From assembly GCA_947073895.1 (NCBI GenBank), contig CAMTNN010000012.1:1-18660 (forward strand): a stretch of 18,660 bases of DNA. The letters run 5' to 3'. Every line of letters begins with the position of its first letter. The first letter of the stretch is position 1. A program made the translations under genes and the position numbers. The stretch comes from an uncultured cyanobacterium. Lineage in GTDB: Bacteria; Cyanobacteriota; Vampirovibrionia; Gastranaerophilales; Gastranaerophilaceae. Of this stretch, positions 2,035 through 3,759 are shown in pieces. Under the pieces are notes generated by a model, which was not told the origin of the DNA, did not search any database, and saw nothing but the letters and a program-made list of their open reading frames with translations.

Positions 2035-2067
2035 TTTAGTAGTACACATTAAAAAAGGTTGAAAATT

Positions 2068-3759
2068 ATGACATTACCAAACGTAGCTTATTTCTCAATG
2101 GAAATAGCAATGGATCAATCACTTAAAACTTATTCAGGTGGTTTAGGATTTTTGGCAGGTTCTCACATGTTATCTGCCGGTTATTTACAAATGCCAATGG
2201 TTGGTGTAACTATGTTATGGTCTTATGGTTATTATGACCAGAGAATTGACCACTCAGGCAACGTAGAAGTAGCTTATATTAGAAAATATTATGATTATTT
2301 AACTGACACAGGTATCGTAGTTGATGTTGATACTTTTGGTGAAAAAGTTAAAGTTAAAGCTTTCAGAGTTGAACCTGAATTATTCGGCACTTGCCCTGTA
2401 TATCTTCTTACAACAGACGTTGAAGGTAACAGTGACTGGGCTAAGAGCATTTCTCACAAACTTTATGACGGAAATGAAAAAATCAGAATCGCTCAAGAAG
2501 CAATCCTTGGTATCGCAGGTATTAGAGTTCTTCAAGCAGCTGGTTACAACTTTGATGTTGTACACATGAACGAAGGTCACGCTCTTCCAGCAGCATTTGA
2601 ATTATTAAGACAATACAACGGTAACTTGAACGAAGTTAAGAGAAAGACTGTATTCACAACTCACACTCCTGTTGCAGCAGGTAACGAAGTTCACTGGGTT
2701 GATACACTTCTTGAAGGCGGATTCTTCGCAGGTGCATCACGTGAAACAGCTATTCAGTTGGGTGGAGAAAACTTCTCATTAACAGTTGCAGCATTAAGAA
2801 TGTCAAGAATTGCAAACGCAGTTTCTCAGCTTCACGGTCTTGTAGCTAACAAAATGTGGGAATGGGTTGAAGGCAGATGCCCAATAAGAGCTATCACCAA
2901 CGCTGTAAACCTTCACTACTGGCAAGATAAGAGAATGAATGGCGACAAATCATTCGATGAACTTCTTGCAACAAAACGTGAAATGAAAGAAGAATTATTC
3001 AAATACGTTGCTAACGTAGCTGGTAAGAGATTTAACCCTGATGTATTAACAATCACCTGGGCAAGAAGATTTGCTGACTACAAACGTGCTTGGTTAATCT
3101 TGATGGATAAAGACAGAATCAACAAATTGTTAGACGAAAACAAAATCCAAATCATCTTTGCCGGTAAATTCCACCCGGATGATGTTATGGGTAAAGAAAT
3201 GTTTAACAAATTGTTGAACAGATCTCACTCATTGAAGAATGTTGTTGTTCTTCCTGGATATGAATTACAATTATCTGGTATGCTAAAACGCGGTACTGAT
3301 ATCTGGTTGAATACTCCGCTTCGTCCATTCGAAGCTTCAGGTACTTCTGGTATGTCAGCTAACGCTAACGGTGCTCTTCACTTATCAACATTTGACGGTT
3401 GGACAGTAGAAGGTACATTCCCTGGAATCAACGGTTACACTGTTGAATACCCTGAATTAGATGATGATATGCCATGGGAAGAAAGACACTGGAAAGATCA
3501 CGAATGTGTAATGGATATTATCGAAAATCAAATCATTCCTACTTACTATAACAATAAACAGGAATGGGCTAGATTGATGAGACAAGCAATCAGAACTGCA
3601 GAAGCTTACTTCAACTCTGACAGAATGGTAGTTGAATACTACAACAGATTGTACAAGCCAATTGCTCACGATGATTGCTCAGCTGGTGAAAAGAAGAAAG
3701 AATTAAACATTTCTGAAACACCTACATTTGATGCTTGGACTTATTCAAATATCAAATAA
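2068..3759 (+). CDS. glgP: Short GT35 alpha-glucan phosphorylase-like protein lacking the PLP lysine
   Basis: The 563-residue protein matches the short bacterial alpha-glucan phosphorylases (TIGR02094 type), which release glucose 1-phosphate from glycogen or maltodextrins. Visible landmarks are YFSMEI (8-13), YSGGLGFLAG (22-31), HMNEGH (166-171), FTTHTPV (about 206-212), ITNAV (276-280), WARRFADYKR (331-340), FAGKFHP (364-370) and FEASGTSGMS (421-430). In the family the last motif normally ends in a lysine that binds pyridoxal phosphate; here it is Ser430 (codon TCA at 3355-3357), so phosphorolysis is in doubt. The cofactor-phosphate contacts (Arg334, Lys339) and the glycine loop remain. ATG 2068 is chosen because AAGG lies 9 bases upstream; the in-frame TTG at 2059 is too close to it. 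C-ending codons are frequent, unlike the neighbours, suggesting very high expression. The gene is monocistronic, with its own promoter and terminator. Confidence 0.85.
   Translation: MTLPNVAYFSMEIAMDQSLKTYSGGLGFLAGSHMLSAGYLQMPMVGVTMLWSYGYYDQRIDHSGNVEVAYIRKYYDYLTDTGIVVDVDTFGEKVKVKAFRVEPELFGTCPVYLLTTDVEGNSDWAKSISHKLYDGNEKIRIAQEAILGIAGIRVLQAAGYNFDVVHMNEGHALPAAFELLRQYNGNLNEVKRKTVFTTHTPVAAGNEVHWVDTLLEGGFFAGASRETAIQLGGENFSLTVAALRMSRIANAVSQLHGLVANKMWEWVEGRCPIRAITNAVNLHYWQDKRMNGDKSFDELLATKREMKEELFKYVANVAGKRFNPDVLTITWARRFADYKRAWLILMDKDRINKLLDENKIQIIFAGKFHPDDVMGKEMFNKLLNRSHSLKNVVVLPGYELQLSGMLKRGTDIWLNTPLRPFEASGTSGMSANANGALHLSTFDGWTVEGTFPGINGYTVEYPELDDDMPWEERHWKDHECVMDIIENQIIPTYYNNKQEWARLMRQAIRTAEAYFNSDRMVVEYYNRLYKPIAHDDCSAGEKKKELNISETPTFDAWTYSNIK

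Follow-up and report, generated by a model that had tools for sequence, protein, structure and literature searches.

A clade of GT35 glucan phosphorylase homologues without the PLP-anchoring lysine, and a candidate replacement lysine on an adjacent helix

What does a glucan phosphorylase homologue do once it has lost the lysine on which its family anchors the cofactor pyridoxal 5'-phosphate (PLP)? The question is raised by one gene in the window, an 18,660-nucleotide stretch of DNA (contig CAMTNN010000012.1 of assembly GCA_947073895.1) from a Gastranaerophilales genome (Vampirovibrionia) that is 83.6% complete. The gene encodes a homologue of the TIGR02094-type phosphorylases of glycosyltransferase (GT) family 35, but the lysine closing the family motif EASGTxxMK is replaced by serine in it. 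Residues are numbered from TTG 2059, at which the open reading frame starts. The features needed first are:

2068..3759, + strand: lysine-less GT35/TIGR02094-type alpha-glucan phosphorylase homologue, 563 aa from ATG 2068
3331..3372, + strand: motif EASGTSGMSANANG, residues 425-438, with catalytic-site Glu425 and phosphate-loop Thr429, kept in all groups
3355..3357, + strand: codon TCA of Ser433, the site of the PLP-anchoring lysine by sequence and alignments

Alignment to the closest solved relatives gives EASGTSGEKAEMNG for this stretch, with lysine where the window protein has serine. The replacement had been reported in a first-pass annotation of this DNA, and comparison with related genomes, the check proposed there, confirmed it and showed it to be a property of a whole clade rather than an oddity of a single gene. 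Among 251 distinct clade members, window included, which were sorted by the absence of lysine at 433, the residue was Ser in 246, Gly in 2, Ala in 2 and Thr in 1. These comparisons took in loci L111-L207 with a tblastn match together with database proteins; two fragments (P0137, which lacks the motif, and L118) and, in the clade count, proteins below 480 aa were left out, and since one gene may appear with two ends, a recount on the shared core reduced the clade from 265 to 251 and the Lys-bearing proteins from 138 to 135. In the database searches, each with 8000 candidates scored and the best 120 listed, the proteins closest to the window protein had Ser at 433 in 120/120 of those listed, while the nearest short Lys-bearing form as query returned Lys in 120/120 of those listed. 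A further 69 proteins, found with a divergent member as query, had Ser in 65, Ala in 2 and Gly in 1, the remaining one being the fragment without the motif.

At the DNA level, the first 110 loci all had Ser encoded by TCN; they represent 88 distinct genes, the same contig having been fetched twice in some cases (TCA 51, TCT 27, TCC 8, TCG 2). Across all loci, a count of non-Lys motifs only gave 149 distinct genes, with TCA in 74, TCT in 44, TCC in 17, TCG in 8, AGT in 2 and AGC in 1, and with GGC, GGG and ACC once each. The annotation had argued that TCA lies at least two changes from AAA or AAG, too far for a single base error; this holds, and a sequencing or assembly error is rejected by the recurrence of the non-Lys state in the 88 genes and the use of both serine codon families. 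One-off mutation or decay was likewise rejected, given the clade-wide state and the codon use described below. As separate observations, an in-frame stop codon is reported within the matched stretch of the Ser-type gene (as we call the clade's gene) at L016 (G005), L154 (G241) and G115:C23, and two genomes carry two diverged Ser-type paralogues each (L169/L181 in G092, L170/L180 in G107).

The loss at 433 is mirrored by the gain of a lysine 23 residues earlier. Lys410 was found in 251/251 clade members and in 0/139 Lys-bearing GT35 proteins. The same position held T (80), V (40), I (11), A (3) or L (1) in the 135 distinct Lys-bearing TIGR02094-type proteins and Y (3) or F (1) in four canonical GT35 proteins, and the stretch 401-433 was free of gaps in every row of a 23-protein alignment. 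The structure model places S406 and K410 one turn apart on a predicted helix, 403-412, and S433 on another, 429-435. The residues of note include:

3286..3288, + strand: codon AAA of Lys410, candidate replacement lysine on helix 403-412 (alignment; helix from the model)
3274..3276, + strand: Ser406, one helical turn before Lys410, clade-invariant
3259..3261, + strand: Tyr401, start of the helix-bearing segment, kept in nearly all proteins, among them 250/251 clade members
3058..3060, + strand: Trp334, clade-invariant; Phe in 135/135 distinct Lys-bearing TIGR02094-type proteins
2692..2694, + strand: His212, clade-invariant; Phe in 135/135 Lys-bearing TIGR02094-type proteins and Trp in 4/4 canonical GT35 proteins

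Position 406, which we take to be the PLP-neighbouring alanine of the rabbit enzyme, is Gly in 77, Ala in 51 and Ser in 7 of the Lys-bearing TIGR02094-type proteins. Taken as a reciprocal exchange of lysines, the alignment suggests that the anchor moved from 433 to 410. Lys306 was considered as a replacement but rejected as a candidate peculiar to the clade, since lysine also occurs there in 4/4 canonical Lys-bearing GT35 proteins.

The non-Lys proteins have a single origin on the tree. Among 57 proteins, the 21 non-Lys rows formed one clade with a support of 100 in the Shimodaira-Hasegawa-like approximate likelihood ratio test, and short Lys forms, long Lys forms, fusions and canonical GT35 all fell outside; the root was set on the canonical GT35 group rather than on a different GT family, and the columns of the trait itself were kept in. 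In other families of the class, relatives whose frames span 540-619 aa had Ser, Gly or Thr at 433. In a scan limited to the phylum, a motif pattern with a small residue at 433 was present in 164/386 genomes, all within the window's class, and in 0/203 genomes of other classes; the pattern allowed no mismatch and required Met at 432, so it can miss members. Canonical GT35 lies far outside the clade on the tree and has the lysine, so an ancient PLP-free ancestor is not favoured. On sequence grounds we class the clade as a divergent, single-origin group of TIGR02094 homologues and do not file it under proven PLP-dependent phosphorylases, because the lysine that defines these was looked for and is absent.

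In other respects the window protein is a recognizable family member. The frame runs from TTG 2059 to 3759 (+ strand, 566 aa), with ATG 2068 as the likelier start because of the upstream AAAAAAGG and because lengths of 562-564 aa prevail among the 120 listed relatives. It scored 468 bits on TIGR02094 (curated cut-off 191.7) and 78.9 bits on PF00343 (gathering cut-off 27), but only 11.5 bits on the N-terminal domain DUF3417 (PF11897; cut-off 25), over residues 7-22 only, and 31.2 bits on the GlgA model TIGR02095 (curated cut-off 328.45). The predicted structure (predicted local distance difference test score 87.1, predicted template modelling score 0.87) has a GT-B fold like that of solved phosphorylases. 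Some clade proteins carry the database names alpha-glucan, starch or glycogen phosphorylase. As a side observation, about 50 TIGR02094 profile positions (around 322-375) are missing between the half-domains, at 2973-3004 of the window (about residues 290-325). The GT35 phosphate-binding basic residues, GGLG loop and catalytic Glu are all present:

3064..3084, + strand: phosphate-binding segment RRFADYK (R336-R337...K342), with R336, R337 and K342 each kept in 251/251
2137..2148, + strand: GGLG phosphate loop, residues 27-30, kept

E425 and T429 are likewise invariant in 251/251 clade members, and the Lys-bearing forms share R336, R337, K342, E425 and T429, although their residue 336 may be R or K. 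The retention of neighbouring phosphate- and sugar-binding motifs, claimed in the first-pass annotation, is borne out: apart from the lysine, residues of both sites are kept. The same annotation had taken the gene to be highly expressed, which its codons support: C-ending codons made up 79/132 (0.60) in five two-fold amino acids compared to 0.11-0.44 in 16 other window genes, and GGT made up 30/41 of the Gly codons, a share equalled by one short window gene only (6/8). The GC content at third positions, 0.30, was the second highest in the window, after a gene with 0.33. The codon use suggests a well-expressed gene, and selection rather than decay, the annotation's further claim, is well supported by the clade-wide non-Lys state, the invariant active-site residues and this codon signature.

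We then consider whether the carriers have an ordinary phosphorylase besides. The annotation had proposed looking for a second, lysine-bearing glgP; none was found by TIGR02094 or PF00343 search in the window's own genome, 83.6% complete as it is, and none in 9 other genomes of the genus. The survey covered 45 selected genomes of the class, of which 37 carry the Ser-type gene and 8 do not. A Lys-bearing GT35 was not found in 34/37 carriers, and the other three (G059, G072, G078) have a canonical GlgP besides the Ser-type gene. A protein search found canonical GlgP in 1/146 Gastranaerophilaceae genomes, other rows being weak matches to frames of Ser-type size. Most Gastranaerophilales genomes examined have no Lys-bearing GT35 besides, and therefore glycogen use in these gut bacteria rests on a presumptive database annotation.

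Glucan genes accompany the Ser-type gene in the genome, and sometimes adjoin it. GlgA scored over the cut-off in 29/37 carriers and GlgC in 27/37; the 8 carriers without GlgA (G039, G044, G057, G063, G069, G072, G078, G102) were also without GlgC. A GH77 (malQ-family) gene was present in 35/37 carriers and 4/8 non-carriers, and malQ adjoins the Ser-type gene in two distant genomes: immediately before it in G057 (L179 4027-6270), and in G069 (L183) on one strand in the order sugar-transporter-like major facilitator superfamily gene, GT5-like gene, malQ, Ser-type gene. This pairing, which we assume to resemble malP-malQ, suggests that maltodextrin is used. In the window itself, the genes on either side are on the opposite strand and, by eye, look unrelated to glucans; no glucan gene was found among the 1-2 neighbours scanned at each of L169, L174, L175, L181 and L182. 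Some further observations concern these glucan genes. The GT5-like protein near malQ and the Ser-type gene has 789 aa (L183:10479-12845, - strand), and several genomes contain other long frames that match GlgA in part. G207 (L187), of the Gastranaerophilaceae, has no Ser-type gene and carries a GT3 synthase next to a long Lys-type phosphorylase, an arrangement that may reflect displacement or contamination. In one family of the class, L188-L192 (e.g., L188:3398-7189) encode proteins of 1256-1277 aa; the L188 protein, which was scanned, joins a GT3 glycogen synthase to DUF3417 and a Lys-bearing GT35 domain, that is, synthase and phosphorylase in one chain.

The first-pass annotation had offered two readings, a glucan-binding or regulatory pseudo-enzyme and a phosphorylase using another lysine or mechanism. 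The absence of the cofactor lysine fits the former, as does the ordinary canonical GlgP in 3/37 carriers. However, Glu425 and the phosphate ligands are invariant, which is not what one expects of a regulatory shell, the codons suggest high expression, canonical GlgP was found in one of the 146 Gastranaerophilaceae genomes, and 34 of the carriers have no Lys-bearing GT35 to regulate; together with the malQ adjacency, this makes a pseudo-enzyme very improbable. For the same reasons (kept site residues, codon use, lack of a Lys-bearing GT35 in most carriers, malQ adjacency) an active alpha-glucan enzyme is likely. The annotation's second reading fits better, and Lys410 provides a candidate.

The most economical mechanism, put tentatively at a probability of about 0.42, would have the protein work as a phosphorylase whose PLP is anchored anew on Lys410. 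The enzyme would be of GT-B fold, descended from PLP-dependent TIGR02094-type glucan phosphorylases and still a phosphorylase, with maltodextrin or glycogen as substrate. PLP would remain in its old pocket, its 5'-phosphate held by R336, K342, T429 and the GGLG loop, and its aldehyde would be anchored by Lys410 on the adjacent helix, which may be able to reach it, instead of by a lysine at 433, where a small residue now stands. Glycogen phosphorylase, unlike other PLP enzymes, uses the PLP phosphate for proton transfer, according to the reviews PMC6411801 and PMC9081730. Because phosphorylases catalyse with this phosphate, the anchoring lysine may move without chemical objection. The phosphate end is intact here.

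Several points weigh against a moved anchor. The clade has fixed, or nearly fixed, other residues besides Lys410 (among others E210, H212, A244, W267, Q289, W334 and S406), and a wider change of function is possible. Position 410 presumably corresponds to residue 657 of the rabbit enzyme, which we do not take to be a PLP contact. No intermediate with both lysines was found among the 139 Lys-bearing proteins, and the reciprocal exchange is one evolutionary event, without replication. Finally, 3/5 clade members scanned outscore six Lys-bearing relatives on TIGR02095. These scores count for one form of the main rival, loss of PLP. In it the vacated pocket would bind the nucleotide of a nucleoside diphosphate sugar, and the protein would be an ADP- or UDP-glucose-dependent glucosyltransferase built from a phosphorylase, reversing the origin proposed for GT35. 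We regard this form as doubtful. The GlgA score is far under the cut-off, 2/5 clade proteins have no TIGR02095 match, and another GlgA model, NF001903, scores a Lys-type protein (24.0) and the window protein (26.5) similarly. Thr429 and the TIGR02094-type Asn418 are still present, 29/37 carriers already have a normal GlgA, and the 8 carriers lacking both GlgA and GlgC argue against ADP-glucose as a general partner.

PLP could also be dispensable for phosphorolysis, with phosphate or loosely held PLP occupying the kept phosphate sites and Lys410 serving as a mere charge. The GT4 trehalose phosphorylase is a retaining enzyme of GT-B fold that is not known to need PLP. For GT4 and GT35 phosphorylases, the review PMC8950772 describes a likely front-side mechanism in which the proton comes from orthophosphate. 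The phosphate-site residues are fully retained, and the malQ linkage suggests phosphorolysis. However, the PLP phosphate is the acid/base of the known family and has no obvious substitute, and it would be a coincidence that a mostly hydrophobic position near the motif acquired an invariant lysine. We consider such a PLP-free or non-covalent-PLP phosphorylase distinctly unlikely, and the broader proposal that a GT35 lineage abandoned PLP and returned to using, at its phosphate sites, a nucleotide-sugar donor or plain phosphate unlikely as well.

Because this GT35 lineage naturally lacks the PLP lysine, it offers a direct test of that lysine's role in phosphorylases. No description of a lysine-less GT35 was found in the open-access literature searched, most subscription papers lying outside that search. 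If the anchor swap is true, it would show clearly how a cofactor-binding lysine has moved onto another helix. If PLP was lost instead, this would bear on the origin of phosphorylases from nucleotide-sugar enzymes, as proposed in PMC11046441, and the proposed step from nucleotide-sugar glycosyltransferase to PLP phosphorylase would have been reversed in living gut bacteria.

Compared to TIGR02094-type GT35 enzymes such as the Segatella copri glycogen phosphorylase (9l6i/20yr), the clade lacks Lys433, DUF3417 and the roughly 50 profile positions at 322-375, and has Lys410 and the other new invariant residues. The short Lys-bearing TIGR02094 proteins (about 560 aa; L185, P0190) are of the same length, also without DUF3417 and 34-37% identical, but they have Lys433 (120/120 of the best 120 listed) and never Lys410. 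Canonical GlgP/MalP (TIGR02093, PF00343) is distant in sequence; in E. coli MalP, Lys646 binds PLP and further lysines lie at the phosphate (PMC11046441). Unlike GT5 GlgA, the window protein retains the phosphorylase motif apart from the lysine. The GT4 retaining trehalose phosphorylase belongs to another GT family, and its likeness to the clade lies in being a retaining phosphorylase with, according to PMC8950772, a likely front-side mechanism.
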